A DNA stretch of 64,000 bases from a virus, in IMG/VR virus record IMGVR_UViG_3300031669_000002, positions 62,001 to 126,000 of that record; one strand, written 5' to 3'. The notes below the pieces were generated by a model, which searched no databases, was not told the DNA's origin, and saw only the letters and a program-made list of their open reading frames with translations. Below, piece after piece: positions 10,732-49,228 of this stretch. A program made the translations under genes and the position numbers. Each line of letters begins with the position of its first letter. Position 1 is the stretch's first letter.

Positions 10732-10797
10732 GCTGATATAGTCCTTTTATATTAGAGCAGTTGGGATTGCACTCCGCGAACTGCACCTTTATTTATC
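10732..10797 (-). promoter_or_regulatory. Late promoter plus conserved 5' hairpin leader (copy 1)
   Basis: GATAAATA (10790-10797) overlaps the end of gp46. Five bases later begins GCAGTTCGCGGAG. GCAGTT pairs with AACTGC (plus-strand hairpin 10757-10784). Then follow TCTAATATAAAAGGAC and TATATCAGC before the ATG. Copies stand before the genes at 16768-17484 and about 49229. The predicted transcript would begin with the hairpin. Confidence 0.75.
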
Positions 10798-12562
10798 CAT
10801 TATCTCCTACCCATGAGGTGTAACCGTTTTCCTTAATCACACGAAGTATATTAGATACGCGACTAGTTAATTCATCTTTGTGTGAGATAAGCCAAATACT
10901 CTTGTCTGTTTCTCTAACCATTCTCTTTAAAATTGACATTGAGCTTTCTACACCGCTCGAGTCCATACCAGAGTCGATAAGTTCGTCAATTATAAGCAAG
11001 TTGATTGGCTCATATAGTGATTCATAAACATCTCTAAATGCTAAAGACAGCGCCAAGATAACTCGAGTCATTTCACCTCGAGATAAATTGTCAAAGTCAA
11101 GATCTCTGCCTAATTCTTCAATCATAACAGTTAAGTCATTTTGGAACACTACCGTGTGAGGTAACCCAATCTTATCCAAGTAAGTTGATAGTCGAGAGTT
11201 TAAGTAAGTTAAATTTTGATCAATGATGCGCTTACGAATAAAGCTATCCTTGTTAGTTAGCAACTTGAGCAATAGTTCTTGATGCTCTTTGCGACGAGTC
11301 ACTTCATTGATGATAGAATAGTCAATCTCTGCCAACGCAGTAGTTTCCATTTCGTGTATCTGATCAGTGTATGGATTTTCAGTGGCAATCTTGCTTTCGA
11401 GCTGTTTCTCTAGGTGCCCAACAGTGGTCTTATGATGAGTAGCATCCTCAAACTTTTTGTATGAGGTTTTTGGTCGGTTTCCAAGTTCTCCTATCTCCAA
11501 GACTGCTTCTGTCAGACCATCAACATACGCTATAAGCTCAATGACCTTATCTCTATGCTCTTGTAGAGAGGCATTTTTTGAATCAAGAAGAAGTTGTTGC
11601 CTATCATCGTGAATGTCCTGCCCACAAGCGTGACAGGTATGATTTTCTAACTGATCAATGTCCGGCAAAAGTTTATCAATCCCCTTTTGCTCACGCTCAA
11701 GATCTTTCTTAGCCCGAGACAGCGTTGTCTCTAAGTCTGCTATGTCTTTCTGTTTCTGTAAATATTTTTCAAGTGCTTTGTGATTATCTATTTCTACGTC
11801 AATGTCAACCTTCAATAAGTCTTCAAGTTGATCTGTAAGGTCTTTGATCTCTTCTTCAAACTTCTTTTCCCATATTCTTTGACGACGACGCAAAGATTCT
11901 ACTTGCTCTTCAATTTTCTTATTAGCTTCTATTAAAGCAGCAATGCGATACTCTTCGCTTGTGATTAGATCCTTTGAAATTCTAACTTGTTCCTTAAGCG
12001 TATCTGCTTTTTCACTAAGCATCGTAATGCCAAGTAACTGTTCGATAATGCTACGCTGATCACCTGCCTTCATCTTAAGGAACGGTTCGGTGTAGGTATT
12101 CAGTGCGAGAACATGTCTGAACATATTGTGTGACATGCCAATAATTCTGTTTATCTCATGTTGTGTTTCACGAGAGTCGCCCTGTGAGTCACTATCCTTC
12201 GACTCAAACGCAACATTGCCCTTATAGAGCAACAATACGCCGGGCTTGCGGCCACGCTCAATGCGGTAGGCAATACCATTCTTCTCAAACTCAACAGTAA
12301 CTATCATACCCTTGCCGTTAGTGAGATTTATAAGATTATCTTTTTTGATATCCGATATGGCAGTCCCATATAGAGCGTAAGAGAGCGTTTGTAAGATCGT
12401 GCTTTTACCTGTGCCGTTTCTGCTACCAGCATCATCTCCGCCGAGATCTAAATTCTCACCTAAGACCAGTGTTAGGTCATTGCGGTCGAGATTGATTGCT
12501 TGTGATACGTTTCCTACAGATAGAAAATTCTTCGCTGTGATTGATTTTAGTTTCAGTGCCAA
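10793..12562 (-). CDS. 46: Recombination endonuclease subunit gp46 (Rad50/SbcC-like ATPase)
   Basis: The protein has 589 residues, close to T4 gp46 (560). It is the ATPase half of the gp46/gp47 complex that resects DNA ends for recombination-dependent replication and host DNA breakdown. Walker A is GSRNGTGKST at 46-55. Coiled-coil arms flank a zinc hook CHAC at 310-313, where two subunits dimerise. The ABC signature LSRGE is at 493-497, and Walker B LLIIDE is at about 522-527 with a downstream LISHKDE His switch. The ATG 12560-12562 lies three bases after the gp47 stop, so the pair forms an operon in the order 47-46. It is probably an early gene. Confidence 0.97.
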   Translation of the reverse strand: MALKLKSITAKNFLSVGNVSQAINLDRNDLTLVLGENLDLGGDDAGSRNGTGKSTILQTLSYALYGTAISDIKKDNLINLTNGKGMIVTVEFEKNGIAYRIERGRKPGVLLLYKGNVAFESKDSDSQGDSRETQHEINRIIGMSHNMFRHVLALNTYTEPFLKMKAGDQRSIIEQLLGITMLSEKADTLKEQVRISKDLITSEEYRIAALIEANKKIEEQVESLRRRQRIWEKKFEEEIKDLTDQLEDLLKVDIDVEIDNHKALEKYLQKQKDIADLETTLSRAKKDLEREQKGIDKLLPDIDQLENHTCHACGQDIHDDRQQLLLDSKNASLQEHRDKVIELIAYVDGLTEAVLEIGELGNRPKTSYKKFEDATHHKTTVGHLEKQLESKIATENPYTDQIHEMETTALAEIDYSIINEVTRRKEHQELLLKLLTNKDSFIRKRIIDQNLTYLNSRLSTYLDKIGLPHTVVFQNDLTVMIEELGRDLDFDNLSRGEMTRVILALSLAFRDVYESLYEPINLLIIDELIDSGMDSSGVESSMSILKRMVRETDKSIWLISHKDELTSRVSNILRVIKENGYTSWVGDNG

Positions 12563-12565
12563 GGT

Positions 12566-13582: not shown

Positions 13583-13610
13583 TTATTTCCAGTCTTTAAG
13601 TTATGTTACT

Positions 13611-13640: not shown

Positions 13641-13668
13641 ACTTTTCGGCAGATCATTTGTCCAGAAT

Positions 13669-13676: not shown

Positions 13677-13681
13677 TGAAT

Positions 13682-15857: not shown

Positions 15858-16766
15858 CTATTCTTCGTAATGACCGCCATCGCTACCGTGACCACCTGAA
15901 CCCTGACGACTAAAACTTGGTGTCAAATCATTGATTTCGAGTATGTCATCGCGTATGTTTTGATTACGCTTCTCAATATTGAGAACACGAGTAAATGAAT
16001 TCTGCAGGGCCATCGTATAGTAAGCAAATGGGTTAGCCGAGACAGATTCGTCAAACTGCAACCCAATCTGACTTAACTGAAGCAGAGCAGTTGATTTCAT
16101 TTCGTCTACATAGGTATATCCCCGCCAATTTGATCGCGTTGCATAACGCTCACATAACTTCATATACATTAGCGCAAGTTTATTAGTGACCTTGCCGTGA
16201 TCTTTACTAAATTCCCCACGTTCTAAGTCACCTACCCAATGACTTTTGCCGACACAAACCGATTCCCCTGTAGCATCTACAATAAAATGCTGAAACGGTT
16301 GAAAATTAACCTTAACATATTTTACTGGGGCAACAATTGCAACAACTAGTTCCTCATCCTCAAAAATATCAACCGAGTCATCGATGACTAAGCCTTTAGA
16401 TTTTTTGGTTTTCGCCGCTTTGGGTATAGCTGCTGGCGCCTCTGGGATATGATCCCAAGTCATTAGTCGAAAAACTACATCTTGATCGCTTATTGTTGCA
16501 GGATCAACTGCAACCGAATCAGCTTTAACTTTTTTGCCTAATGCTCCGGCAGCATCTACGGCAAGCTTTGTAAGGCGATCAGCCCTAGCAATTTTTGCTT
16601 CAGATTTTTCTCCGCCCTTCATTAGCTTGGGTATTTCCCCCAAACTTCTAATAATAACGTCATAGTCGCTATATTTTGGGTCAGCATAACTGCAATATGA
16701 GACTTTGCTCTTGTGTATCTCTTTTAGAATGTCTTTATTGTTTAAATAATTTTGAACACGGGCCAA
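15858..16766 (-). CDS. 55: Late transcription sigma factor gp55-like
   Basis: The protein has 302 residues from a TTG start (16764-16766) with AGGAG seven bases upstream. T4 gp55 has 185 residues. The N-terminus (VQNYLNNKDILKEI) matches the T4 start pattern (YVNNKELLQAI). The C-terminal half has the sigma-like core: KVTNKLALMYMKLCERYA, WRGYTYVDEMKSTALLQL, ANPFAYYTMALQNSFTRVLN, then IEKRNQNIRDD. About 140 residues in between, Ala/Lys-rich and with a predicted beta part (PVKYVKVNFQPFQHFIVD), have no T4 counterpart. gp55 directs host RNA polymerase to TATAAATA promoters, and such octamers are abundant here. The TTG start overlaps the upstream homing gene stop region (TAAATTG). Confidence 0.9.
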   Translation of the reverse strand: MARVQNYLNNKDILKEIHKSKVSYCSYADPKYSDYDVIIRSLGEIPKLMKGGEKSEAKIARADRLTKLAVDAAGALGKKVKADSVAVDPATISDQDVVFRLMTWDHIPEAPAAIPKAAKTKKSKGLVIDDSVDIFEDEELVVAIVAPVKYVKVNFQPFQHFIVDATGESVCVGKSHWVGDLERGEFSKDHGKVTNKLALMYMKLCERYATRSNWRGYTYVDEMKSTALLQLSQIGLQFDESVSANPFAYYTMALQNSFTRVLNIEKRNQNIRDDILEINDLTPSFSRQGSGGHGSDGGHYEE

Positions 16767-16767
16767 T

Positions 16768-17484
16768 TTATTTCTCCTTTTTTCTTTCGTGTGCTGCTCT
16801 TCTTGCCTCTGACCACGGTTTCCCCTTATTGGGAGACGGTTGCCCTATTCTCTTTAATGCATTTACCTGATTTGCTTTCTTCAGATTTGCGATCCATTCG
16901 TCATTAAATGGTGCTCTTGCTTTTCCTTGTTGCCGATTAACAAGTGACTTTTTGCGACGTAATGCTTCTTCTTTACCGTAAATCTCCTCCCAGGTCTTAC
17001 CCTTCTTAGCGAGTGACTGTAATTCCCTCGCTTTATCATCTCTTTTCTTACCCGAATTTGAAATACCGATTTTAATTTTGGTTTCTTCCAGACACGGTTT
17101 CCTCTCTCTATTCTTAGCAGCAATAGATCTTTTCTTACGAGTTTCGTCTGATTCGTTACGTTTAGCTGCGGCCATTTTTTCTCGTGTTTCTTTTGATGGG
17201 TTCCGTAGTCCTTCTCCGCCATCTGTTTTATTATTAAGGATTCCGGTCCCTATATCTTTTCTTCCATAGTCTGATATTAGGCATGTCTCTATGAATAGCG
17301 CCATATCCTCAGACAGATTAGTATATAAAAATTGAATAAATGACTTATCTGTGGGAACAGGAGCATTCCTATGATCTTCGTTGATCCTATTATTCTTCCC
17401 TTTACCGATATAGTATGGTGTTCCTGCTTTTGCTGTTGCGGAATCTTTACTTCTTAGATACGCATAGACATAATAAATATTCAT
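16768..17484 (-). CDS. GIY-YIG homing endonuclease
   Basis: The protein has 238 residues from ATG 17482-17484. The frame opens further upstream, but that part is the conserved untranslated leader, and the relative at 10021-10731 starts with the same [21 protein letters not shown] motifs are VYAYLRS and PYYIGKG. Glu lies in ALFIETCLISDYG and Asn in ILNNKTDGGEG. Basic helices and KTWEEIYGKEEALRRKK follow, then a NUMOD3-like end (IGQPSPNKGKPWSEARR). Unlike its relative it lacks the CPxC...HFDNC module. It sits directly upstream of gp55. Confidence 0.92.
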   Translation of the reverse strand: MNIYYVYAYLRSKDSATAKAGTPYYIGKGKNNRINEDHRNAPVPTDKSFIQFLYTNLSEDMALFIETCLISDYGRKDIGTGILNNKTDGGEGLRNPSKETREKMAAAKRNESDETRKKRSIAAKNRERKPCLEETKIKIGISNSGKKRDDKARELQSLAKKGKTWEEIYGKEEALRRKKSLVNRQQGKARAPFNDEWIANLKKANQVNALKRIGQPSPNKGKPWSEARRAAHERKKEK

Positions 17485-17553
17485 GCTGATGTCCCCTTGG
17501 ACAGTAGAGCAGTTGGATACTGATAATATCGCGAACTGCATATCTTATTTATC
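17485..17553 (-). promoter_or_regulatory. Late promoter plus conserved 5' hairpin leader (copy 2)
   Basis: GATAAATA (17546-17553), then after 6 bases GCAGTTCGCG. GCAGTT pairs with AACTGC (17509-17514 with 17534-17539). The loop differs from copy 1, while CTCTA and CATCAGC before ATG are kept. The ribosome site reads AAGGGGAC. Confidence 0.7.
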
Positions 17554-28385: not shown

Positions 28386-29141
28386 ATGACCACAAAGACG
28401 ACAACAATAGATTTTTTACCTACTTATCTTTATATTAAACGACACCCTGTTACTGGATTATTGTATTTAGGCAAGACATCTGGATCAGAACAATACTTGC
28501 TTAAAGAATATTTGGGATCAGGCAATTATTGGGAAGATCATTTAAGAATACACGGTGAAGAAAATATAGAAACTCCGTGGTATTGTTTATATACAGAAAA
28601 AGAAGAATTGGTTAGGTTCGCATTGATGTTGTCTGAACAGATGAATATTGTAAAGGTTAAAGATGAAAATGGTAAAAAGATATGGGCAAACCTAAGACCT
28701 GAAAATGGATTAGATGGAGGAGTTAAAGGTGTTAAATGTGGACCACAGTCAGAATCACATAAGATTAACAATGCAGCAGCTAGAAAAGGGAATAAATATG
28801 GCCCACAAAAACTCCCAAGGAAAGCAGAACATAGCGCCAATATTAGTAGTTCTAACTTAGGCAAGAGTAGAAATAAAGGAGTAAAACAATCACTAGATCA
28901 CGCCAGCAAAACAGCAGCCAAAAAAGGAAATACTTATGGAAAAGCAAATAAAGGACAAATTCCTTGGAATAAAGGAATAAAGATCCAATATAAGCCACAA
29001 TCTGCAGAAGTAATAGAAAATCGAACCGGCAAAAAGCGAGGCAAATATAAAGAACTAATTTGTCCACAATGTGCTAAGGTGGGTCACGGCGGCGCAATGA
29101 AACAACATCACTTTGATAATTGTAAAAAGAAAACATTATGA
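28386..29141 (+). CDS. GIY-YIG homing endonuclease with zinc module
   Basis: The protein has 251 residues. Motifs are TYLYIKRHPVTG and LYLGKTSG, then EYLGSGNYWEDHLRIHGEEN, TEKEELVRFA with the Glu, and IWANLRPENGLDGG with the Asn. This copy has all expected residues, unlike its relative at 1037-1762. The middle is basic with NUMOD3-like GNTYGKANKGQ and PWNKG units. Residues 226-246 form CPQCAKVG...MKQHHFDNC. The TGA stop overlaps the ATG of the next gene (ATGA), so it is placed tightly between gp6 and the giant gene without disturbing either. Confidence 0.92.
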   Translation: MTTKTTTIDFLPTYLYIKRHPVTGLLYLGKTSGSEQYLLKEYLGSGNYWEDHLRIHGEENIETPWYCLYTEKEELVRFALMLSEQMNIVKVKDENGKKIWANLRPENGLDGGVKGVKCGPQSESHKINNAAARKGNKYGPQKLPRKAEHSANISSSNLGKSRNKGVKQSLDHASKTAAKKGNTYGKANKGQIPWNKGIKIQYKPQSAEVIENRTGKKRGKYKELICPQCAKVGHGGAMKQHHFDNCKKKTL

Positions 29142-32100: not shown

Positions 32101-35100
32101 TGATATTTTACCTGACCAGTCACAGTTTATTCCTAATCTAAAAGTATATGTCAATAGTATTGAACTAGTGTCAACTTCTTATTCTATTACTACTGTAGGT
32201 ATAGTAAACTACTTGACAATTTCGTCAACACTTTCCGTAGGCGACGAGATTGATATATTAATCTACTCAGCTACGCAGGTATCAACTGCTGGGTACTATG
32301 AAATACCAAGTAACTTGGATTACAATGCACTAAATGAAAATTTTACAGTGCTTACGCACGGACAGTTTAGAAATCACGTAGCAACCATTGCGTCTAATAC
32401 TACAGAGATATTAGGCAAGGTTCCAGGACAAAGCAATCTTAGAGATCTATCAGTTAAAACTTTTGGTGGAAGTATTTTACAACATAGTTCTCCGTTAATC
32501 TATAGCGAACTATTCTTGCTTAATAAAGACTTAAACTTTATGGATGCGAGTACCTACGTCCAACTAGAATATAATAGATTTAAGAACAAATTCTTAGAAG
32601 CGTTCCCATCAGTAGTAGATGCCGGAATTTTAGACCCCGCAGTCGCAGTGGATACTATTCTGCTACAGTTGAATACAGTAAAGAATGACAAATCGCCGTG
32701 GTACTACAGCGATATGGTACCTTACGGTGGAAACAAAGTAACGACTACATACACTGTATTAAATGTAGATATAACTGCTTATGAAATCGCAAGTATCTTC
32801 AATGACAATATATTAGGCAATAAGGCTATTTTAGTGTATCTGAATGGTAGTCAGCTAGTAAAAGGCATCGACTTTACTTTTGACCAAACTCGCCCCGCAA
32901 TCAATTTTATTAAATTGCTTAACTATGGCGACACAATAACTATCAATACATACAGCAATACAGATGGTAATTTTATACCAGAGACTCCAACAAAACTTGG
33001 TCTATATCCAAAGTTTACGCCAGAAAAGTTTGTGGATAGCTCGTATCAATCATCTCCTATAGTAATTCGCGGCCACGACGGAAGCATTACGCCGGCATTT
33101 GGGGATATGCGCGATGAACTACTATTGGAACTTGAAAAGCGTATCTACAACAATATCAAAGTAGAATACACTACTTCAAAGTTTGATCTGTTTAAATTTA
33201 TCCCAGGTAAATTTCGCGAAACAGAATATACTAAGGCAGAGTTTGACCAAATCTTATCTAGAAGCTTTATGGAATGGATAAGCAACAACAGAACTGATTA
33301 TTCAGATAATCAGTGGTTCCAGAGCGGCAACCAATGGTCATGGACATATAGTAGCTTCAAAGATAAAATAGATGGCTCTTATCTTCCTGGATATTGGAAG
33401 GGAATTTACAAATATTTCTACGACACAGATGCACCTCATCTAAGAGCATGGGAAATGCTTGGATTTAGTGAAATGCCAGATTGGTGGATAGACACTTATG
33501 GTCCAGCACCTTATACGGCAGGAAACAAAGTTCTATGGGATGATCTAGAATCAGGAACTATTGTACAAGGCACAAGAGCAGGAACATACTCACAGTATGC
33601 TCGCCCAGGACTGAGCACAGTGATACCAGTTGATGTTTATGGAAACTTATTATCACCTAACGAATTTTTAGTAACTGGATTTAACGGGTCAACTGTTGAC
33701 GATACTTTTGTGTTTGGAGATAACGGCCCAGTTGAGAATGCATGGAGAACAAGCAGCCATTATCCTTTTGCAGTACAACGAGCAATTGCTCTAATGAAAC
33801 CAGCGTTATATTTTGCACAGCTTGCTAACGTTCAAGACTATAGTAACACAAACGAATTAGGTCAATGGCTTTTCGTAGATAACAATCGTCGAATCACGTT
33901 AAAAACACTTGAGGTAAATGGCGAAGTTATTACGCCGTTAACTGCTACAGCTATTAACCCAACAGGATCAATATTAAGACAGGCAGGATACCTGAACTGG
34001 ATAAGCGACTATGTTGCTGGATACGGAGCATCCAGCCCAACCATGATACACAGTTATCTCGATACTCTTAGTGTTAAGTTAGGATATAGAGCTGCCGGTT
34101 TTACCGACCAGTCATTTATTTCTATCTTTGCAGATCAAGCAAGTCCTAATAGCACAAATAAATCAATTGTTATTCCAAACGAGAACTACCAAGTCTACGT
34201 CCATAAATCAGCTCCTATATCAAGTATAGTATATAGTGCTGTAATAATTGAAAAAACTCCTAGAGGATTTTCTGTAAGCGGCTATAGTACAGAGCAGCCA
34301 TACTTTACTATAATTCCAAGTAACCCAAACAACAATTTTTACACAATCTCGGCTGCAGGGCTAACGGGTGTAATATATAATGACTATCAACCGTTAACCA
34401 TTACAGTGCCGTATGGTCACGAGTTTGTAAATAAGCAGCAAGTAGTTGACTTCTTAACAAGCTACGGCAGATATCTAATTTCTCTTGGGTTTACTTTTAC
34501 CGAAGTAGATCCTGATTTACAGATCGCAAAAGATTGGATTTTAGCCGCAAAAGAGTTCCTAACATGGACACAGCAAGGTTGGGCAGTAGGCAATATCATC
34601 GTAGTTAGTCCAATATCTAATTCTATATCACTTACTGTTAATAATGGTGTAGTAGATGAAATTACAAATTTTCCAAATGGATCTAAAGTAATGGATGTTG
34701 GCTTTAATGTTATTAAGTCTAATCTGTTTACTGTTATAAGAGACACAAGCGAGTTTAACCTAACAACTGCTGCACCAAACATTACAATTGGATTGCTTGA
34801 TGTTGATGTAGTTCAATATGAAAATGCATTAATTTTTGATAACACCACAGTCTTCAATGATGTCATCTACGCTCCGGAATTAGGAAACAGGCAGTACCGA
34901 TTAAAATTAATTGGTGATGTAACAAGTTCTTGGACTGGAGAATTTAATCCTCCAGGACTTATTTACAGTAATCCATCTGTACAGGCATGGCAGCAAGGGA
35001 AAGATTACCGCCAAGGAGATATTGTAGGGTATAACAACTTTCTTTATTCTGCATTGCAGGACATCGATGCAACCAACACATTTAACTACTCTTACTGGGC

Positions 35101-38100
35101 ACAGTTAGATCAAGCAGCATTCAAAACAGGAATGTTGCCTAACTTATCATACAATGCATCTAAGTTTTTAGATATGTATGATGTTGATAACCAAGTTGCA
35201 GATCAAAACATAAACGAATATGCAATGGGATTAATCGGATATCGAGATAGAGATTATTTAACACAGCTCAGAGTAGATACTACTTCTCAAGTTAAATTTT
35301 ATCAAGGTTTTATTCGTGATAAAGGAACAAAGAATGCAGTTAATGCATTAGCAAGTGCTACCTTTGAGAACCTGAACGGCACACTAAACTTTTATGAAGA
35401 GTGGGCATTTAGGGTAGGTAACTATGGGTCAACATTGAGCAATCAATTCTTAGAGGTTCAACTATACGATAATCTTTATAAATATGATCCGATGTCTTTT
35501 GCTTTGTTGAATAATAATGAAACAACAACTGATACGGGTGTAGTTGGTGTGTATGAAAGCGACTTATATAAAAAACCACTTACTTTTACACCCGCAATAA
35601 TTGAGAATAGATCACCAGAGTCAATCTATTCCAGCGACATAGCATCAGCAGGATATGTTAACCTAAACGACGTTGATGCAACAGTGTTTGATATAACAGA
35701 TGCTGCTTCATTGAATGCATTAGTGCCGTCGATTAGTACAGGTTTCAAATTATGGGTAGCAAAAGATAACACTAGTAACTGGAATGTTTATAGATTAGCA
35801 GAAGCATTGGCTAAAGTTATTGATGTATTATACCAATTGAATAACTTTGCTTTGTTTACAACAAGCACGACTCATGGGTTAGTTGCAGGTGATATATTCG
35901 TAGTTAAGGGATTCTCAAGTCTTGTTGATGGATTTTACACGGTAATACGATCAGTTGATGACCAAACAAATAATATCTATACCTTATTTGTTGCAATAAC
36001 AGATAGTTTAAATGCAGCACTTATCGTTACCCCAGAGATTACGGGCGACGGAAACATGTTTAATCTAAGTAGCATGAGAGTTAAATATCAGACTAATATA
36101 TTAGATATAACTCCGGGACTAGGTTGGATAAACAACGATAAGGTATGGATCGACACCAATGATGCAAACTCAAACTGGGCAGTATATCAGAAAACAGACC
36201 CATGGAACTTCGTTGATGCATTAGCACTATACTCCACGCAGATCACAGCAAATGCATTAGTGGGATCTTCAATTGCATCAACGTCTGATGGTCTACTTGT
36301 TGCCATTGGCGCACCAAGTAGTAATTTATTACCAAATGATGGTTCAATAAAAATCTTTACAAGAACACTTGCGGGCAATTATATTCCCGGCAATTCTATA
36401 AATCCTTCTCTATCGCCTAACAGACCATTTATTTCGAATATTACTTTATATAACATACCGTATCTTGGTTCGCCAATACCAGGTACCGCACCATTTAAGT
36501 TAAGTCTGAGTAATCTAGGATTCACTCCAAATCCATTAAACATAGTAACTGTGGTGTGGGATGATATTTGGGTTCCTGGGCTTGTGCCAGATAGCTTATC
36601 TAACCCTGCAGGAATAGGCGTACCATTAATTTCAGGAATACAAAACGACTATGTTATCACATATAACGATCCTGACCCACTATTTTTAGGTCAGACTACA
36701 ATAACTTTTAGAAATAATCCTACATTGCACGGGGCAGCGAGTTCGCTTCGATTTAGACTTGCTGAGGTAGAACCAGAAAAATTTGGTGAATCTCTTGATA
36801 TAAAACAAAATACAATTGCAGTAGGTTCTCCGGGATATAGAGGTGCTGGTCCAAATGAAGGAAGAGTTGCAATCTATAACATCGATTCAACCGGTACTAT
36901 CTCAATGACTCAAAGTATAGATCCAGAATTGTTGAATGCTACCTATAACACTCTTGCTACATATCAATATATTGCAACAGACGATCTTTTTGGTAGTTCT
37001 GTGTCACTAAGTGATGATGCACAGTGGTTATTTGTTGGGTCTCCACACTCACAGTGGAACGGGATTATTGGGTCTGTTTATGCATTTGCTCTTAAAGATA
37101 TCACGTCATCAACACAGACTATTACAACAAGCGGAAATATTACTACTTACCCACTAACGATATCTAATATTAGCAATCAATTAGGCATAACTGTATTGAA
37201 TCAGTTTTACAGTTTAATACCAAACGTCGATTATGTCATTGATATAAACGCAAGCACTATTACGTTTACAAAGAATCCCGCAGGAAAAATTTATCAAGTA
37301 AATCAGGGCCCATATTACGATTTTAATTCGGTTATTGCGCCAAATGATGGTGATTTAGGGGATCAATTTGGATCAGTAGTTAAGTCTCAAGCAGATGGTC
37401 GATATGTAGTAGTTGGAGCTAAGAACAAAACAATAAATGCTCAAGCATCTGTTGGTCAAAGTTATCTATTTACGCGAAGCGTACAAGATATAATTGGTGA
37501 TGGCATAACTTCTTCATTTAACCTGTATCAAGTACCAAACACTCAATCAAATGCTTATGCCTCAACATACTCATTGAGCGGGCAAGAATACACCCAAGTG
37601 TTAGATACAAATACTAGCGTATCTACATACAACCTGACATTTACTGCAAACACAGATGCGATTATTACAGTAACTCCAAATGTTCCGCCAGCATTAAGCT
37701 ATACAATTGATTATAGTACAAACCAGATTATATTTAATACAAATCCGGGTAACATTCAATGCAATATTACTCAGACTATAACATCTACCTATAATTTTGT
37801 ACCTAATGTTACGCCAAATGTTTATTTAAGTGGTAGCACAATAAGTTTTGGCGCAGCTCCAGGAAAGAATTTAGTGCTGCATGTAGAGCTAAACAATTTT
37901 AGTCAAATTCAAACATTTAATTCTAATAATGCACTTCTACTAGATAGCGGAGCAAACTTTGGTAATGCTGTTACCCTATCTTCTACGCTTGATGAAGTTT
38001 TTGTAGGGGCAACCGGAAGCACTTCACAAGATGGTAGAGTCTTTAGATTTACTAATCCAAGTATCACATACAATACAATATTACTTGATTTGGTTCCTAC

Positions 38101-41100
38101 TGCATCAAATATTATTATTAATAACAAGTTTATTGACTTAACTAGCGCCAATGCGAATGTTTATGCAATTTTGTCGACTATTACTAGTGCTAACATTGTT
38201 GGATTATCAAGTTCGATTGAAGGAAATGCAATTAGATTGACCTATAACTCTACAAAAGCCAACGATAGTCTTACCGTATTAGAAACTAACACAGCAGGCG
38301 AAATAGTTTCATTGGGCTCGCCGCTGATCAATACTCAAACTCTTGTTCATCCTGTAATAAGTCAGTATATTTTTAGCAATAGTCAGTTTGGTAGCACACT
38401 TGCATATGATAATGTTTCTGGTACACTAGTTGCGGCTGCATCAAACTCGCCTACAATTGAGAATTTCCAGCTTGACGGGTTTAGCACAACATTTGACGGC
38501 AACTCAACAAGAATATTTGATAAGTTAGACAACACTGGTGCAGTATATGCATTTGAAGAATTATATAATCCACTTAATTCGATTGATGTTCCGTCAAAGT
38601 TTATCTTTACTCAATCGTTCGCGCCAGCAAGCTTAGTAGCAAACATTAATTTTGGCTCGGCGATTGCAATGAACTACAACTCAATATTCATCGGTGCGAA
38701 TAATGCAGATGTTACGCCAGTAGATGCACTTGGTGTGACGGGTAATATAGTACCAAGAGCTGGAAATGTATTTTATTACAGTAATCCAACAGTTACATCA
38801 GCGTGGGGACAAATTCGTCAAGAAGCACCTAAGGTGGATCTTGCTAGTGTCTCAAGAATATTCCTATACGATAGAACATCGCAGGCTATATTATCATCGT
38901 TAGATTATATTGATCCAGCAAAAGGTAAAATTTTGGGTGCTGCTGAACAAGATATTACATTCAAATCAGCGTTTGATCCTGCAAAGTATAATGTAGGCAC
39001 AAATGCTAACACGTCAGTCAGACAAAATTATCATTGGGGGAAAACCCAGGTAGGACAGATATGGTGGGATCTATCTAAGGTACAGTATATAGACTACGAG
39101 CAAGACACACTAAGTTATCGAATTAAGAATTGGGGTTCTTTATTTCCAGGATCTACTATTGAGATAAATGAGTGGGTAGAAAGTAGTGTGTTGCCATCTC
39201 AATATTCGGGAGACGGAACAGTAAAGTATCCAGATAATAGCGCGTATGTTCAATCGACCATGCTAAATTCATCAACTGGCTTTATTGTAACAACCTATTA
39301 TTATTGGGTAACAAATAGAACTACGCTTGACCCTAGTTTAACTTTTAGACGATCAACTGCACTGACTATTGCAAATATGATTAAGTCTCCGGCAACACAG
39401 GGAATACCGTACGCAGCAATCATACAAGATAATGCTCTTGCTATGTATAGCGCAAACCAGTATTTGAATGCAGATAGAACAATCATGCATATAGACTACG
39501 AGAAGTTAGCAAATGAAAATATTATTCACAATGAGTATGAGTTGATACAAGAAAACTCGCCTAATGCAATAATACCATCAGACATAGTAAGCAAACTTAT
39601 TGATAGTCTTACTGGTGCTGATGCATTTGGTAACCCTGTACCAGATGTACAACTTGGTGTAGCAGAACGCTACGGCATAACTATCAGACCAAGACAGACG
39701 ATGTTCATTGACAATCTGACTGCAACAAAAAATATGGTAGAGTTCGCAAATACAGTATTCTTAACATTGCCGGTCGTCGAAGAATTTGATCTAACTAACT
39801 TGTATCTTTCAGATCCTGTTCCAGTTACTTGGGGTAATTTATATCCTGTTGCTTGGAAGATTAATACTCAATATGTAGCAGATGAACTAGTATCGTACAA
39901 CGGAAAAACTTACCTAGTTAAATTTGACCTTAATTCGGGAACATATTTTAATGCTCCGTATTATGCCGAAACAATATTGCCTGATGTATCAGTGTCTACT
40001 CCGATTGAGCTTACCTACTTAGATACCTCGTTGTTGTCTATACATCAAGTTATATTAGTAGAACAAGACTCAAATTACAATAATGGTTGGTCTCTATATC
40101 AATTAGGTATCAATAGAACATTTACTGTTATTAGAACAGAGACATATCAAACTTCTAACTACTGGAGCAAAGTAGACTGGTTTGATTCTACATATGACCC
40201 AACCATTAAACCTACCCATACAGTCGGAACTATTCCTGACATTGGAAATCTAACTTTAGTAAGCGGCGACACAGTATGGGTCTTAAATAACGGCGCAGGA
40301 CTATTCATTGTTTATAAAGTAAACACAGATTTGAGTTTATCACTAGTCGGACTACAACAAGGAACAATACAGCTTAGTGATGCACTATGGAATCACGCTG
40401 CCTACGAAATCGGCTTTGATAACGATAGATTTGATACTGTTAAGTTTGACCTAAACCCAACAACAGAGTTTAGAAATATTCTTTATGCTCTATATAACAA
40501 TATCTTTACAAATAGTCTTGCGGGCGAGTTTAACAATATGTTCTTCATATTGCTTAATTATATTCTTTCTGAACAGAGAACAATTGACTGGGCAATTAAG
40601 ACAAGCTTTGTTTCTGTGTTGCACCAACTTCGTAAACTACTGCAATATCCGAACTATATTGAAGACAACCAAACTTATTATCAGAGCTATATCGACGAAG
40701 TTAAACCTTATCGAACAACAATTCGCGAATATGTCATTGACTATCAAGGCGATGACCTAGTAAGAGTTCACCCAACTGACTTTGATTTGCCACCATATTT
40801 TGACACAGAGTTTAATATGTGGCGTAGTCCCAACGGAGAACACGCTAAGGATACATTGATTTTGTCTACTTATCCGCAGTATGCTGATTGGAATGCAAAT
40901 CATACATATTCTATTGGTAACGTGGCAATAATATCTGGCGGAATAGGATATACAGATCCGCCTGAAATTATAGTAGAAGGCGGAGGTGGTACAGGTGCAA
41001 TACTTCAATCTTCAATAGATTTAAACGGAATAGTAAAGTTTATCAAGGTTGTTAAACCGGGATATGGATATACGACCACGCCGACACTACTAGTAAGAGG

Positions 41101-43846
41101 AAATGGAGTAGATTCGACCGGCGCACAAACATGTAGATTATATCCGCTACTGTCAAATACTTTAGTTAGGGGTATGAACACATCAATTAAATTTGATAGA
41201 GTATCATATTCATCAACTGTCAAACACTGGGCAAAAAATATTACTCTCAACGGAGGAGACATAGTATCATACAACGGCGCAGTTTATACAGTTAATGGAA
41301 ATTCCTCAATTACGACAGGTGTTGTGTTTGAGTTATCTAATTACACACCAACTTCAATAGATACGCTTAACGCAGCAGATAGAGTTAATGCATTCTACGC
41401 GCCGACAGAAGGAATGCCACCAAACATACTATCTAATCTCTTTACTGGTATTGATTATTCTGGAGTCATTGTTGACGGTACAGACTTTGTTCACTATGTT
41501 GACGCAAACGGAATTGAATACACAGTTGATGCACACGGTAATAAATTACCACTTGATTCTAATATCCAGAGTTATTTTGGAGATTCCTTACTAGGAACTA
41601 GACCTCAAGATATTAATATCGACGGCGGACACTTCATTGATACTTGGAATAGTCATGCGCCAGAAGAGCTAGTACCAGGCAGAGTATTTGATACATTAGA
41701 TATTAAGGTATTTACTGCTAACTTGGCTGCCGGACCAACATACTCCGATTCAGTTGGTTACAGAATGTCTAAAGCAATGACAGTAGAATCAAATACTACA
41801 ATAGATGCTTTATTAGCAGTACCGACAACATTTGATACGAATACAACGACACTTGATTTTATAAATCTTGAACTAGCCTGGGAATTTAAACGTATATCAG
41901 CAGCATTGACTACGACACTGGCAAAAGATTTATTCTTAGTTGAGACTGTAGATAAATTACTTGTAGGTGATTCATATACTATTACCTCAGTTGGCAATAC
42001 AGACTTTATCGCATTGGGTGCAGCAAGTAACACTGTCGGAGAAGTATTTACTGCTAACACCGGCATAGTCAACGTGGGAAATCTTGTTTCTGGAATGAGC
42101 TATAAAATTTCAAGCTTAGGCAATACTGATTTTACTTTATCTGGTGCAACAAGTGTTTCTGCTGGACACTTTAATTCTAATACTTATATTATTGAGTCGT
42201 CGGGAGACACCGACTTTATATCTCTTGGTGCAATGGACAACTTACCCGGAACAGTATTTACATACACCGGTGAGTTCTCTACACCTAAAGAATTACTAAA
42301 TGGAAACACATACATCATTAGTCAAACTGGAACAACCGACTTTGTTGCTCTGGGTGCATCAGCAAGTATAGTTGGGCTTCCGTTTATTGCAAATACATCG
42401 GCTATAGTTAATGCAGGAAATCTTACCATTGGTAAGACATATAGTATTATTTCTGCCGGTAATACAGACTTTGTTGCTCTTGGTGCAGCAAGATCTACTA
42501 CAGGAGAATTATTTACCTACGGAGATCAAAAAGTTAATGCAGGTTCTCTTGTAATAAACAAGAATTATGCAATCACTAGTGTCGGTAATACAGACTTTGT
42601 TGCTCTTGGTGCAGCAACTAACACTGTCGGAGAAGTATTTACTGCTAACATCGGCATAGTCAACGCAGGTTCGATTGGGGTTAATACTGCATATAGAATC
42701 ACAGTGCAGGGAAATACTGACTTTGTTGCTCTTGGTGCAGCAACTAACACTGTCGGAGAAACATTTGTATATCAACAAGTTCCAGTCACAGCTGGAAGTT
42801 TTGTAATCGGAAAAACATATACAATCATTAATCCGGGAAATACAGATTTTACTTTAATAGGATCATCAAGTAACTTAGTAGGTACATCTTTTGTTGCTAC
42901 AGGTACAGGAAATGTAGGAGAGACTGGCGTAACACTTGGACCAAGGATGTTAAGAGCAGGATCATTTGTGGTAGGTAAGGCGTATATTATCGTATCTCTG
43001 GGGAATACTGATTTCACTGCGGCTGGTGCATCTTCTAACACAGTAGGAACATCTTTTTTCGCAATAAATGCAGGTGTTGGTACAGGATCAGTTGATCCAA
43101 ATACTGGTTCAGGAATAGTAGACCCAAGTGCAGGTACAGGCATAGCTGATCCTAATTCGGGAACAGGAATAGTAGATCCATTTAACGGTTCCGGCATTGC
43201 AAGTGGACCAATGATCGCTGTCACTTCAAGTTTATTTACTGTAGGAAAGACATACAAGATAAGTTATCCAGGAACGACCGACTTTGTTGCATTAGGCGCA
43301 GCAAGTAACACTGTCGGAGAAGTATTTACTGCTTCCTCAACTGGAACAGGAACAGGAATAGTAGATCCAAATATAGGTACAGGAACTGCATATATTAGAG
43401 AATTTGTTGCTACTTCTTCAGGGTCAGGAACTGGATTAGTTGCTGTTGCAGGAAACGGAACAATATCGCCTATGCAAATTCACGTAACTAACGGCTCTAA
43501 CCTATATTATCCAAATCCACTAAGACAGTCCCCGGGTATTGTTTATATCAATAGTGAGAAGATTATTTATTGGGGATTAGATGCAACTGCGGGAATAATT
43601 ACAAACTTCCGTCGAGGAACATGGGGTACAGGATCAGAGGACTTCTATCCAGCAGGAACGGCGGTAGTTGATGCAAGCGTAAGTCAATTGATTCCAGGAA
43701 ATACACTAACAACATCGTGGCTTGATCTGGCAATTTCCCCTAATCCGCCAGCCGTAATATTAGAAGGAAACGGTTTATTAGCAAGCAGCACGCCACAGGC
43801 ACTCTTCTTGCAATCAAGTCCGGTAAATTTGCCAAGCTTACCCTAA
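29138..43846 (+). CDS. Giant virion structural protein, 4902 aa, with beta-propeller and repeat domains
   Basis: This is the longest gene in the window. The N-terminus (LPLIFQTPANQKFLNATLDQ, then VDGYIGRKFAPTYRAG and FDKFVNFSEYYWLPTGPDP) looks like a conserved attachment domain. Position after gp6 matches gp7 in T4, but similarity to gp7 (1032 aa) is not visible. Residues about 2365-3215 hold seven FG-GAP-like blades (FGESLDIKQNTIAVGSPG, FGSSVSLSDDAQWLFVGSP, FGNAVTLSSTLDEVFVGAT), separated by DYxIxxxxxxITF beta modules. Carbohydrate-binding-like W...Y..G..V.Y.g..Y units occur at several places. Residues about 4269-4755 hold ten GNTDF repeats. It probably forms a baseplate-attached arm or fibre that binds the cell surface. 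Confidence 0.85.
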   Translation: MIIKTLSYLPLIFQTPANQKFLNATLDQLVTQPDFKRVDGYIGRKFAPTYRAGDNYVPEPTAERQNYQLEPSVVSLDINGETQFFSTYTDLLQQIEYYGGITNNHTRLFDQESYTFDGKIDFDKFVNFSEYYWLPTGPDPVNVYSVSSNLRQTFDITRNLAVNAYTISGFNNSPNPEIILARGGVYQFVVDQPGFNFWIQTDIGTSGTKLTQPNISTRQILGVDNNGTDNGTVTFTVPQADAQDGFITMPLVQSIDFATNLLYSDIQGKNLATFAGIDGVSSNLPGKYLIFTSNDTNASNWGNTDPSHWNGIWQIQLSGANINLVWIKDIPVGEKVFIKSGSTYVNLEFYKITTGQLEQVPPASASLNILYYADSTNPGFYGTIRVVDPLTFQIDVETEILGKQSYTSPNGVVFTNGLKITLNNTVTPASYAGNTYYVEGVGSSIKLLPVDLYGGTSTLDYIVINRSSIDGNSWSKTNSWFHSDVIAATSTYNNTVPLLDQLTRASRPIIEFSPNLQLFNYGRVEKPYVNILDFTSTDAFTQVQGSVLFDPAVYKTGETIIFAADQDPNVKNKIYNIDIATIAGGAYTVSESSPTAIGSLVAGETYVIDILGTTNWAAVGAAVPTPGIPFVATGPGTGTGIAYHIIYTRPGHFVSGQTYQITDVGTMNWSLLGVSSPTVGLQFIASFIGNDATTGTGAAQFVTQPESFINLTEVLNGDVLAYDVVIPNTGMLVKLNPSNNSQFDTNTSFRTIDYSLLPADIGTLSLTTVNGYGTAGTLIKGYQYEIKYAGTTDFTLYGSPDNLVGTIFTATNTNLPTTGQQTGIAQLLNIVDSGFVSGKSYWFNGINWVQSQQKTSTNQSPLFDIVDNNLISLGDPTIYYATSFKGCPIFTYLQGTGTADPALGFPISYRNINNVGDIEFTNNYDTDTFNQLVGLTTVTNNVNSGFIPVIVDRTTIIKENMWVKKFENSKQYQIFSAVYDGSTSNFQIDILPDQSQFIPNLKVYVNSIELVSTSYSITTVGIVNYLTISSTLSVGDEIDILIYSATQVSTAGYYEIPSNLDYNALNENFTVLTHGQFRNHVATIASNTTEILGKVPGQSNLRDLSVKTFGGSILQHSSPLIYSELFLLNKDLNFMDASTYVQLEYNRFKNKFLEAFPSVVDAGILDPAVAVDTILLQLNTVKNDKSPWYYSDMVPYGGNKVTTTYTVLNVDITAYEIASIFNDNILGNKAILVYLNGSQLVKGIDFTFDQTRPAINFIKLLNYGDTITINTYSNTDGNFIPETPTKLGLYPKFTPEKFVDSSYQSSPIVIRGHDGSITPAFGDMRDELLLELEKRIYNNIKVEYTTSKFDLFKFIPGKFRETEYTKAEFDQILSRSFMEWISNNRTDYSDNQWFQSGNQWSWTYSSFKDKIDGSYLPGYWKGIYKYFYDTDAPHLRAWEMLGFSEMPDWWIDTYGPAPYTAGNKVLWDDLESGTIVQGTRAGTYSQYARPGLSTVIPVDVYGNLLSPNEFLVTGFNGSTVDDTFVFGDNGPVENAWRTSSHYPFAVQRAIALMKPALYFAQLANVQDYSNTNELGQWLFVDNNRRITLKTLEVNGEVITPLTATAINPTGSILRQAGYLNWISDYVAGYGASSPTMIHSYLDTLSVKLGYRAAGFTDQSFISIFADQASPNSTNKSIVIPNENYQVYVHKSAPISSIVYSAVIIEKTPRGFSVSGYSTEQPYFTIIPSNPNNNFYTISAAGLTGVIYNDYQPLTITVPYGHEFVNKQQVVDFLTSYGRYLISLGFTFTEVDPDLQIAKDWILAAKEFLTWTQQGWAVGNIIVVSPISNSISLTVNNGVVDEITNFPNGSKVMDVGFNVIKSNLFTVIRDTSEFNLTTAAPNITIGLLDVDVVQYENALIFDNTTVFNDVIYAPELGNRQYRLKLIGDVTSSWTGEFNPPGLIYSNPSVQAWQQGKDYRQGDIVGYNNFLYSALQDIDATNTFNYSYWAQLDQAAFKTGMLPNLSYNASKFLDMYDVDNQVADQNINEYAMGLIGYRDRDYLTQLRVDTTSQVKFYQGFIRDKGTKNAVNALASATFENLNGTLNFYEEWAFRVGNYGSTLSNQFLEVQLYDNLYKYDPMSFALLNNNETTTDTGVVGVYESDLYKKPLTFTPAIIENRSPESIYSSDIASAGYVNLNDVDATVFDITDAASLNALVPSISTGFKLWVAKDNTSNWNVYRLAEALAKVIDVLYQLNNFALFTTSTTHGLVAGDIFVVKGFSSLVDGFYTVIRSVDDQTNNIYTLFVAITDSLNAALIVTPEITGDGNMFNLSSMRVKYQTNILDITPGLGWINNDKVWIDTNDANSNWAVYQKTDPWNFVDALALYSTQITANALVGSSIASTSDGLLVAIGAPSSNLLPNDGSIKIFTRTLAGNYIPGNSINPSLSPNRPFISNITLYNIPYLGSPIPGTAPFKLSLSNLGFTPNPLNIVTVVWDDIWVPGLVPDSLSNPAGIGVPLISGIQNDYVITYNDPDPLFLGQTTITFRNNPTLHGAASSLRFRLAEVEPEKFGESLDIKQNTIAVGSPGYRGAGPNEGRVAIYNIDSTGTISMTQSIDPELLNATYNTLATYQYIATDDLFGSSVSLSDDAQWLFVGSPHSQWNGIIGSVYAFALKDITSSTQTITTSGNITTYPLTISNISNQLGITVLNQFYSLIPNVDYVIDINASTITFTKNPAGKIYQVNQGPYYDFNSVIAPNDGDLGDQFGSVVKSQADGRYVVVGAKNKTINAQASVGQSYLFTRSVQDIIGDGITSSFNLYQVPNTQSNAYASTYSLSGQEYTQVLDTNTSVSTYNLTFTANTDAIITVTPNVPPALSYTIDYSTNQIIFNTNPGNIQCNITQTITSTYNFVPNVTPNVYLSGSTISFGAAPGKNLVLHVELNNFSQIQTFNSNNALLLDSGANFGNAVTLSSTLDEVFVGATGSTSQDGRVFRFTNPSITYNTILLDLVPTASNIIINNKFIDLTSANANVYAILSTITSANIVGLSSSIEGNAIRLTYNSTKANDSLTVLETNTAGEIVSLGSPLINTQTLVHPVISQYIFSNSQFGSTLAYDNVSGTLVAAASNSPTIENFQLDGFSTTFDGNSTRIFDKLDNTGAVYAFEELYNPLNSIDVPSKFIFTQSFAPASLVANINFGSAIAMNYNSIFIGANNADVTPVDALGVTGNIVPRAGNVFYYSNPTVTSAWGQIRQEAPKVDLASVSRIFLYDRTSQAILSSLDYIDPAKGKILGAAEQDITFKSAFDPAKYNVGTNANTSVRQNYHWGKTQVGQIWWDLSKVQYIDYEQDTLSYRIKNWGSLFPGSTIEINEWVESSVLPSQYSGDGTVKYPDNSAYVQSTMLNSSTGFIVTTYYYWVTNRTTLDPSLTFRRSTALTIANMIKSPATQGIPYAAIIQDNALAMYSANQYLNADRTIMHIDYEKLANENIIHNEYELIQENSPNAIIPSDIVSKLIDSLTGADAFGNPVPDVQLGVAERYGITIRPRQTMFIDNLTATKNMVEFANTVFLTLPVVEEFDLTNLYLSDPVPVTWGNLYPVAWKINTQYVADELVSYNGKTYLVKFDLNSGTYFNAPYYAETILPDVSVSTPIELTYLDTSLLSIHQVILVEQDSNYNNGWSLYQLGINRTFTVIRTETYQTSNYWSKVDWFDSTYDPTIKPTHTVGTIPDIGNLTLVSGDTVWVLNNGAGLFIVYKVNTDLSLSLVGLQQGTIQLSDALWNHAAYEIGFDNDRFDTVKFDLNPTTEFRNILYALYNNIFTNSLAGEFNNMFFILLNYILSEQRTIDWAIKTSFVSVLHQLRKLLQYPNYIEDNQTYYQSYIDEVKPYRTTIREYVIDYQGDDLVRVHPTDFDLPPYFDTEFNMWRSPNGEHAKDTLILSTYPQYADWNANHTYSIGNVAIISGGIGYTDPPEIIVEGGGGTGAILQSSIDLNGIVKFIKVVKPGYGYTTTPTLLVRGNGVDSTGAQTCRLYPLLSNTLVRGMNTSIKFDRVSYSSTVKHWAKNITLNGGDIVSYNGAVYTVNGNSSITTGVVFELSNYTPTSIDTLNAADRVNAFYAPTEGMPPNILSNLFTGIDYSGVIVDGTDFVHYVDANGIEYTVDAHGNKLPLDSNIQSYFGDSLLGTRPQDINIDGGHFIDTWNSHAPEELVPGRVFDTLDIKVFTANLAAGPTYSDSVGYRMSKAMTVESNTTIDALLAVPTTFDTNTTTLDFINLELAWEFKRISAALTTTLAKDLFLVETVDKLLVGDSYTITSVGNTDFIALGAASNTVGEVFTANTGIVNVGNLVSGMSYKISSLGNTDFTLSGATSVSAGHFNSNTYIIESSGDTDFISLGAMDNLPGTVFTYTGEFSTPKELLNGNTYIISQTGTTDFVALGASASIVGLPFIANTSAIVNAGNLTIGKTYSIISAGNTDFVALGAARSTTGELFTYGDQKVNAGSLVINKNYAITSVGNTDFVALGAATNTVGEVFTANIGIVNAGSIGVNTAYRITVQGNTDFVALGAATNTVGETFVYQQVPVTAGSFVIGKTYTIINPGNTDFTLIGSSSNLVGTSFVATGTGNVGETGVTLGPRMLRAGSFVVGKAYIIVSLGNTDFTAAGASSNTVGTSFFAINAGVGTGSVDPNTGSGIVDPSAGTGIADPNSGTGIVDPFNGSGIASGPMIAVTSSLFTVGKTYKISYPGTTDFVALGAASNTVGEVFTASSTGTGTGIVDPNIGTGTAYIREFVATSSGSGTGLVAVAGNGTISPMQIHVTNGSNLYYPNPLRQSPGIVYINSEKIIYWGLDATAGIITNFRRGTWGTGSEDFYPAGTAVVDASVSQLIPGNTLTTSWLDLAISPNPPAVILEGNGLLASSTPQALFLQSSPVNLPSLP
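30930..31600 (+). repeat. Three dispersed G-T-x-x-F/W repeats in the giant gene
   Basis: Within the N-terminal fifth of the giant protein, three units resemble the C-terminal GNTDF array: ETYVIDILGTTNWAAVGA, QTYQITDVGTMNWSLLGV and YQYEIKYAGTTDFTLYGS. They are more diverged than the C-terminal units. Confidence 0.7.
36220..38800 (+). other. Seven FG-GAP-like blades, predicted integrin-type beta-propeller
   Basis: Seven segments share the pattern F-G-x-x-(V/L)-x-(hydrophobic), then hydrophobic-V/I-G-(A/S)-(P/N), then G-x-(V/A)-(Y/F)-x-(F/Y). They begin near 36229, 36770, 36985, 37350, 37945, 38380 and 38640. The first blade has VGSSIASTSDGLLVAIGAP and the last FGSAIAMNYNSIFIGAN. Seven is the number that closes an integrin-alpha-type propeller. 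Extra beta modules are inserted between several blades. Confidence 0.65.
41945..43370 (+). repeat. Ten tandem GNTDF repeats near the end of the giant gene
   Basis: The unit is about 38-45 residues: G-K-x-Y-x-I-x-x-x-G-N-T-D-F-x-x-L-G-A-x-x-N-T-V-G-E-x-F-x-A. Several copies are nearly identical in DNA too: AATACAGACTTTGTTGCTCT occurs at about 42461, 42587 and (as AATACTGACTTTGTTGCTCT) 42713, and AACACTGTCGGAGAAGTATT recurs at about 42029, 42620 and 43308. Between the last units lies a short run of D-P-x-x-G-x-G-I repeats (about 43080-43200). Confidence 0.85.
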
Positions 43847-44641: not shown

Positions 44642-44652
44642 GCAGCTAACTT

Positions 44653-46254: not shown

Positions 46255-46263
46255 GGATAATAA

Positions 46264-47565: not shown

Positions 47566-47598
47566 TAAAAATTTAACTGGGGAAAGGGAACCGGTCAT

Positions 47599-48363: not shown

Positions 48364-48722
48364 GCTATTACATTACAATTGATTCAACAAGTCGTATTAC
48401 TGGTCTTTACACTAATGAACCTGGATATCCAGATTTACCAAGTAATCCAATACTAATAAGTGATACAGATGCAGAGACACTAAAAGCGGGGTTTACTGAA
48501 TTTGCGTATGTAAATAACGCAGTAGTTTCTTCTCCTTTATCTGCAGAAGCAAAAACTTACAGTTATGTAGAAGATAGAGCAGCAGCATATCCGCCCATAC
48601 AGGACTACATAGATGGTATTGTTAAGGGAGATACTGCACAGGTTCAGACCTACATAAATGCTTGCTTTGCAGTTAAAGCAAAGTACCCTAAGCCTAAACA
48701 GCCGCCCCGTCGCTTAAAGTAA
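48360..48722 (+). CDS. Fibre-assembly-like protein (XkdW/Tfa type tail)
   Basis: The protein has 120 residues. The C-terminal part has VEDRAAAYPPIQDYIDGIVK and TYINACFAVKAKYPKP. A R-A-x-x-Y-P-x-(I/M)-x-(E/D)-x-(L/I)-D motif is common in small proteins at the end of phage tail-fibre operons, including XkdW and fibre-assembly chaperones. It probably helps fold or cap the preceding fibre. It overlaps the preceding gene by four bases and the convergent Nudix gene by nine. Confidence 0.68.
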   Translation: MSYYITIDSTSRITGLYTNEPGYPDLPSNPILISDTDAETLKAGFTEFAYVNNAVVSSPLSAEAKTYSYVEDRAAAYPPIQDYIDGIVKGDTAQVQTYINACFAVKAKYPKPKQPPRRLK

Positions 48723-49163
48723 TTTTTCTAGAGTAGCGATCTTATCAATGATGACTTTGAATTTGAAAGTTCGCCAAACTCCAGGAATTAACGGTTTGGG
48801 ATGATCGATGAGGTTAGTCCAAGCATACCCGCGATGTTCGTCATTAAGTGTAGGAATAAATTCATCGTCGACTGATATCAAAAAAGTATAATAGACAAAC
48901 GTGTGGTTGTCAGAAGTAAAGGTTTCAATTGGTATTGTTTTTCTCTGACTTAGATCAACTCTAGTCTCTTCAATAATTTCGCGATATAGGGCCTCAGTTA
49001 TCCGTTCCCCCTCATTAATTTTTCCGCCCGGAATTCCCCAACTACCAGAATACTTTGCACCATCCCGCAGTAGGAATAGATACCGCTTAGTGTTTTTGGC
49101 ATAAACGAGAGCACCAGCTGCTTCTAATAGGTCTTTTTTCTTAATATCTTCCATAATTTGCAT
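48714..49163 (-). CDS. Nudix hydrolase
   Basis: The protein has 149 residues from ATG 49161-49163. Further upstream the frame opens only with a TTG inside the leader of the divergent homing gene, and an alternative ATG lies three codons downstream. The Nudix box is complete: G47, E53, R61-E62-I-I-E65-E66 in the order G-x5-E-x7-REUxEE. It hydrolyses a nucleoside diphosphate linked to another group. Substrates in phages include (d)NTPs, ADP-ribose, Ap4A and NAD-capped RNA; T4 NudE acts on ADP-ribose and related dinucleotides. The specific substrate cannot be read from the sequence. A role in handling ADP-ribose next to a possible ADP-ribosyltransferase is only a conjecture. Confidence 0.93.
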   Translation of the reverse strand: MQIMEDIKKKDLLEAAGALVYAKNTKRYLFLLRDGAKYSGSWGIPGGKINEGERITEALYREIIEETRVDLSQRKTIPIETFTSDNHTFVYYTFLISVDDEFIPTLNDEHRGYAWTNLIDHPKPLIPGVWRTFKFKVIIDKIATLEKLL

Positions 49164-49228
49164 AAATAGTAATGTAGTTCGCGGAGCAGCAACTCCCAAC
49201 TACTCTAACATAAAAGGACTATATCAGT
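49161..49228 (+). promoter_or_regulatory. Late promoter plus conserved 5' hairpin leader (copy 3)
   Basis: CATAAATA (49161-49168), five bases, then GTAGTTCGCGGAG. GTAGTT (49174-49179) pairs with AACTAC (49198-49203). The other two copies have GCAGTT and AACTGC, so both sides of one base pair have changed together. TCTAACATAAAAGGAC and TATATCAGT follow, almost identical to copy 1. Confidence 0.8.

Follow-up and report, generated by a model that had tools for sequence, protein, structure and literature searches.

A conserved 79-bp cassette at the start of phage homing endonuclease genes with a predicted structured RNA on the opposite strand

How invading homing endonuclease genes avoid harm to their phage is an open question, to which sense-strand hairpins and autorepression in T4 are the known answers. 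In the stretch of viral DNA analysed here (64,000 nt, referred to as the window) three such genes share a leader, which an initial annotation had described as a late promoter followed by a single 5' hairpin of the mRNA. We asked how widely this leader occurs, on which strand its structure is selected and what it might do for the genes behind it.

The leader in the window and in other phages

All three leaders were found at the annotated positions, namely 10732–10797 (minus strand), 17485–17553 (minus strand) and 49161–49228 (plus strand). They share the order ATAAATA, a spacer of 5–6 nt, G(C/T)AGTTCGCG, a variable loop, AACT(G/A)C, TCTA, a ribosome site, CAG(C/T) and ATG. The compensatory change reported for the stem is real: its second pair reads C-G in the first two copies and T-A in copy 3. 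The combination AGTTCGCG-N6-30-AACT matches four times in the window (the three leaders and one unrelated place) compared with 0.13 matches expected in shuffled sequences, and a covariance model run on the whole record of 177,974 nt recovered these three copies alone (E 1e-16 to 4e-12). The nuclease genes behind the leaders belong to different families, GIY-YIG relatives in copies 1 and 2 and HNH_3 in copy 3, in agreement with the annotation:

10021–10731, minus strand: GIY-YIG/NUMOD3 homing endonuclease gene of copy 1, 236 aa, directly after an SbcC/gp46-like gene
16768–17484, minus strand: GIY-YIG-type homing endonuclease gene of copy 2, 238 aa
49231–49929, plus strand: HNH_3 homing endonuclease gene of copy 3, GTG start

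The endonuclease of copy 2 gave no Pfam match and was assigned to the GIY-YIG type by its similarity to copy 1 and relatives. In the annotation the shared leader ends in ATCAGYATG. The leader ATG is indeed present, but in copy 3 (position 49229) it is out of frame with the HNH gene and reads MCIYCGPLSIETF... Since the HNH frame is open from the GTG at 49231, this gene either uses GTG or is frameshifted. In comparison to its homologues (MCIYCGT..KYR) the stretch 49229–49929 (plus strand) looks frameshifted near codon 7; a protein identical to the HNH protein of copy 3 is present in another locus (L153).

The phage has a T4-related layout, with an SbcC/SbcD (gp46/gp47-like) pair, a late sigma factor gene and tail sheath genes, and several of its structural genes have a TAAATA hexamer about 30 nt ahead of them. 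The homing endonuclease gene of copy 2, which bears its own late promoter, is the immediate upstream neighbour of the late sigma factor gene, and both are read in the same direction (15858–17484, minus strand). A further homing-endonuclease-like gene at 8617–9684 (minus strand) carries no cassette and matches PHROGs 7363 and 314 as well as 447 ("NAD synthetase"). We also noticed an open frame of 4902 aa at 29138–43846 (plus strand) with an FG-GAP repeat and a carbohydrate-binding module CBM_5_12, a 1114-aa sheath-domain protein at 59950–63294 with a weak CBM_5_12 match, and a weak match to hammerhead HH9 at 60750–60811 (minus strand; 26 bits, gathering threshold 52, E 0.033) that is probably due to chance.

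Outside the window, a degenerate pattern of the leader matched at least 119 stretches in viral contigs, and among those listed nearly all showed the narrow spacing and the flanks of the originals. When 30 records, some of them close relatives, were searched as a whole, the cassette was present in 26 with about 147 copies in total. Jumbo phages have up to 16 copies, a number reached in a 360-kb contig, and a contig of 142 kb has 12. The 360-kb phage contig (G005) also encodes a permuted tmRNA (L417:935–1154, minus strand; Rfam RF04321, 87 bits, gathering threshold 47). In loci fetched by protein similarity alone we found the cassette at 66 of 80 for the GIY-YIG query and at 55 of 80 for the HNH query, and the match stops just inside the gene. 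Three cultured phages carry one copy each: Rhizobium phage RHph_I1_18, Variovorax phage V45v66 and Pseudoalteromonas phage XG4. Near and distant DNA searches of cultured phages returned the Rhizobium copy only (E 0.7), the other two having been reached through protein neighbours. A pattern scan of bacterial genomes gave two matches, neither of which scored with the covariance model. The Rfam 15 covariance models, among them those of known nuclease-associated RNAs, showed no match to the leader at E ≤ 5 in the window or at E ≤ 1 in 11 further loci, and we found no description of the cassette in open-licence papers.

The genes behind the leader were classified for 100 copies fetched by the leader itself, giving NUMOD3 (35), HNH (13), HNH_5 (10), HNH_3 (7), GIY-YIG (4), SegE (3) and others. 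Nearly all recognisable families were those of homing nucleases, with one T4-type terminase, and 184 of the 196 downstream proteins fell into one similarity cluster. The claim that the leader is independent of the nuclease family was borne out, as it precedes GIY-YIG, HNH_3, HNH_5, SegE and DUF723-like genes. In the terminase case (L280:132–1900) the cassette stands before the gene of the large subunit, with the sense promoter present and the second hexamer described below, TATTTA, absent; perhaps it is a remnant left after loss of an endonuclease gene. Taken from sequence comparison, the cassette is a 79-bp element conserved ahead of homing nuclease genes, with a 55-bp core that in the consensus begins at the predicted sense +1 and ends with the last base ahead of the start codon.

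The strand of the conserved structure and a second promoter

The single 5' hairpin of the initial annotation had to be extended: the lower hairpin is present, and so is a second helix, which holds the ribosome site in its loop and has the conserved CTA...CAG as its base. Further covarying examples exist in quantity. In 37 gap-free aligned copies both sides of a helix pair had changed in 96 cells, compared with 24 in shuffles and no more than 16 when the partners were slid, and wider sets contain lower-stem variants such as GAGAGC, GCGATT, GTTGGT, GACAGT and GCTAAT together with their complements. The parts that stay fixed are, read on the sense strand, two bulged C around a G-C/A-T pair, the CTA...CAG helix base and two hexamers. 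In 112 of 112 rows neither bulged residue varies, unlike the stems and loops.

A true RNA helix tolerates G·U pairs. On the mRNA strand the helices contain A·C in 127 cells and G·T in 3, compared with 350 and 250 in shuffled columns. Left out of this count are one loop-closing pair and the invariant position A46·C64, at which 146 of 147 rows have A·C. As the rows are related, the counts are not independent, but at almost all helix positions A·C is more frequent than G·T. Since an A·C read from one strand corresponds to a G·U in its complement, the pattern places the selected structure opposite the gene. Read as antisense, 702 of 703 cells are standard pairs (99.9%) versus 644 in sense (91.6%). 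Pairing rules of the sense strand had been used to build the first alignment, a bias against the antisense result. Free folding of the antisense alignment gave exactly two hairpins separated by one base, at -20.5 kcal/mol versus -14.3 kcal/mol for the sense strand. Folded singly, 153 of 174 copies were more stable as antisense than as sense (z -2.05 vs -1.26), and the hairpin around the ribosome site (hairpin A) had a median probability of 1.00 in antisense and 0.71 in sense. The invariant A46·C64 and the frequent C48·A62 weaken this hairpin on the sense strand, and in the antisense RNA each of them is a G·U pair. On held-out copies the scores of the antisense and the sense covariance models are about the same, so that the strand is decided by the wobble pattern and the folding only. 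Both indicate that a structured RNA is selected on the strand opposite the nuclease gene.

In T4, where gp55 recognises TAAATA, late transcription starts 6 nt downstream of the promoter hexamer. In 163 of 196 copies the sense spacing is TAAATA-N5-G, which puts the predicted sense start on the first base of the hairpin, as the annotation had expected. By this spacing, by the hexamers ahead of other late genes and by the late sigma factor gene, the TAAATA of the cassettes is of the T4 late promoter type, its starts being predicted. A late-promoter hexamer in reverse orientation, TATTTA, is conserved just downstream of the start codon. It lies at an offset of 5, 3 or 4 from the start codon in 142, 20 and 10 of 175 genes, respectively, and thus occurs in all three frames; its distance to CAGC is 5 in 149 of 191 copies and 4–6 in 179. 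In the main frame, isoleucine at codon 3 is encoded by ATT in 128 of 129 cases, compared with 42% elsewhere in the same genes, and threonine at this codon by ACT in 12 of 12. Because TATTTA persists in each of the three frames and also at a synonymous position, the constraint acts on the base sequence and not on the protein, and amino-acid conservation could be ruled out as its cause. Two of the 196 copies had been dropped for want of a TATTTA-like hexamer, and TACTTA or some other variant takes the place of TATTTA in as many as about 10% of copies. Rhizobium phage RHph_I1_18 has retained both hexamers. In Variovorax phage V45v66 a TATTTA is situated about 12 nt further in; in Pseudoalteromonas phage XG4 neither hexamer is recognisable and the structure is retained.

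When the 6-nt rule is applied to both hexamers, the two predicted starts hit the ends of the same core, one at base 1 of the lower stem and the other at the base beside the start codon. The conserved TATTTA marks a putative promoter that faces the promoter of the nuclease gene. For the three copies in the window the following features are predicted, with the antisense +1 placed by the promoter rule and the RNA by the covariance and strand analysis:

10790–10796, minus strand: sense late promoter ATAAATA of copy 1; read in reverse, it forms the end of the antisense U-rich tail
10720–10726, plus strand: antisense late promoter ATAAATA of copy 1, which is TATTTAT in the first codons of the endonuclease
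10732–10796, plus strand: predicted antisense RNA of copy 1, +1 at 10732 (model match 10720–10796)
10733–10755, plus strand: hairpin A of copy 1, its loop being an anti-Shine-Dalgarno sequence
10757–10784, plus strand: hairpin B of copy 1, with two bulged G
10785–10796, plus strand: antisense U-rich tail of copy 1
17546–17552, minus strand: sense late promoter ATAAATA of copy 2
17473–17479, plus strand: antisense late promoter ATAAATA of copy 2
17485–17552, plus strand: predicted antisense RNA of copy 2, +1 at 17485 (model match 17473–17552), with hairpin A at 17486–17507, hairpin B at 17509–17539 and tail at 17540–17552
49162–49168, plus strand: sense late promoter ATAAATA of copy 3
49234–49240, minus strand: antisense late promoter ATAAATA of copy 3
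49162–49228, minus strand: predicted antisense RNA of copy 3, +1 at 49228 (model match 49162–49240), with hairpin A at 49227–49205, hairpin B at 49203–49174 and tail at 49173–49162

A candidate antisense control and its alternatives

We consider it likely that the 79-bp cassette is a portable sense/antisense expression unit, in which a cis-antisense RNA holds translation of the endonuclease down. The TAAATA late promoter would start the endonuclease mRNA at the first base of the 55-bp core, and the reverse TATTTA promoter inside the first codons would start an antisense RNA of about 55–65 nt beside the start codon. This RNA is predicted to fold into two hairpins. The loop of hairpin A would display the complement of the Shine-Dalgarno sequence; behind hairpin B, with its two invariant bulged G, would come a U-rich tail, which occupies the site of the sense promoter and is where the transcript probably ends. 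About 5 of 8 bases of the tail are U in the position table, and a terminator scan, which disallows bulged stems, did not flag this moderate U-rich tail. As the antisense RNA is complementary to the entire 5' UTR, it should pair with the mRNA. Pairing may begin at the ribosome-site loop and block translation, perhaps with cleavage by RNase III, so that nuclease output would stay low, and a low dose would presumably be of benefit. A block of translation is the most likely outcome. The conserved A·C positions would leave the ribosome site of the mRNA loosely folded and the antisense hairpin firm.

Copies within one genome are diversified. The longest stretch shared between them has a median of 7–9 nt and long identical stretches are rare, which suits pairs acting on their own gene; sharing of one antisense RNA among the copies of a genome was rejected on the same observation.

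The initial annotation had proposed that the 5'-terminal hairpin of the mRNA stabilises the late transcript or regulates translation, a reading that can be extended by TATTTA-TAAATA pairing in read-through RNA that would hide the start codon. It draws on the predicted sense +1, which in most copies is the base that opens the lower stem, on the good folding of the lower hairpin on the sense strand also, on TAAATA/TATTTA pairing being kept in more than 88% of cells at each inner position, and on the T4 switches, which share its logic (PMC2988022, PMC3014915). However, the wobble pattern is opposite to that expected of a sense RNA, the antisense pairing, the antisense fold and the reverse promoter all argue against the mRNA hairpin as the selected structure, and the ribosome-site hairpin is weak on the sense strand. 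The mRNA is still able to form the lower hairpin because it is the complement of the antisense RNA. The outer TAAATA/TATTTA stem shows no compensatory change, has a mean probability of about 0.15–0.3 and does not reduce the accessibility of the start codon in predicted folds at 37, 20 or 10 °C; as a means of hiding the start codon it was therefore rejected. Selection of a sense hairpin is in our view quite improbable. Still less credible, to the point of being very improbable, is a DNA-level element such as a cruciform or recombination end by which endonuclease genes are moved or exchanged. The element is bounded by inverted TAAATA/TATTTA ends and common to unrelated nuclease genes, as such a role would have it, yet the ribosome site and the start codon belong to its core, and a DNA hairpin, being identical on both strands, would not produce the asymmetry of A·C and G·T.

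A somewhat better candidate, although we still hold it to be unlikely, is that the antisense RNA is made and acts otherwise: in trans on other RNAs, by binding a phage protein through the bulged G, or solely through transcriptional interference between the convergent late promoters. Protein recognition would suit the invariance of the bulged residues next to variable stems and loops, and promoters facing each other at about 70 bp would interfere. Against this stands the placement of the RNA, which in nearly all copies covers exactly the 5' UTR and the ribosome site of the gene to which it belongs; the diversification within genomes, too, fits pairing in cis better than one common target. If interference were all, conserved hairpins would be needless.

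With repression in cis as the preferred reading, the copies would probably, if with slightly less confidence than for the unit itself, make up a large undescribed class of cis-antisense RNAs in environmental phages, one RNA per homing endonuclease gene and up to 16 per genome. Each would have its late promoter concealed among the first codons of the gene and would be folded with the help of G·U pairs that keep the ribosome site of the mRNA open; within a genome the copies would have diversified into separate pairs, and the cassette would be swapped between unrelated nuclease families. Portable antisense control, if true, would be a second solution to the problem of harm, used by several nuclease families, and would help to explain how genomes tolerate more than 10 homing genes. 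The cassette could also serve as an RNA marker for homing genes in metagenomes.

Comparison with known systems

In type I toxin-antitoxin systems (hok/Sok and others) a cis-encoded antisense RNA covers the translation initiation region of a potentially harmful gene. The cassette differs in that it belongs to a homing nuclease, with no toxin and no known post-segregational role. A phage antisense RNA opposite a homing endonuclease gene is found in CfrI of cyanophage S-PM2, which is about 225 nt long, links psbA and the endonuclease gene and occurs at a single locus (PMC2984593). The cassette, in contrast, is 79 bp long, lies at the 5' end of the nuclease gene and in the window is not beside psbA; at the loci tested in four cyanophages other than S-PM2 we found no match to it.

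Hairpins in T4-type phages combine, like the cassette, an RNA structure with a late promoter at the start of a homing endonuclease gene. On the sense strand they hide the ribosome site of I-TevI, I-TevII, I-TevIII, segB and Aeh1 mobE and form in early and middle read-through RNA only (PMC2988022). The structure of the cassette, by contrast, is antisense, and in the predicted sense fold neither ribosome site nor start codon is hidden: by fold prediction, accessibility of the start codon and the Shine-Dalgarno sequence is equal in read-through and late RNA. An arrangement resembling the T4-type switch, with the late promoter within an inverted repeat, was noticed in Synechococcus phage S-SRM01 (L358:1401–1471), where GTGTTCGCA ... 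TATAAATA ... TGCGAACAC precedes an endonuclease-like gene annotated as "translation initiation factor 2".

Nearest in its predicted working principle is RNA-OUT of IS10/Tn10, a likeness of layout only, with no sequence relation or family membership claimed. RNA-OUT is a 69-nt hairpin antisense RNA whose promoter faces the transposase promoter; it ends in the transposase promoter region, is complementary to the translation initiation region and keeps the nuclease of a mobile element low (PMC5006887). Unlike RNA-OUT, the cassette serves several unrelated nuclease families, and its copies in a genome have diversified instead of being identical. Pairing of RNA-OUT involves its first 35 nt, whereas the antisense RNA of the cassette would cover the whole 5' UTR; it has two predicted hairpins instead of one, and both promoters of the cassette are of the phage late type. 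As in RNA-OUT, the antisense RNA would cover the ribosome site and the start region, and its predicted end lies inside the sense promoter.
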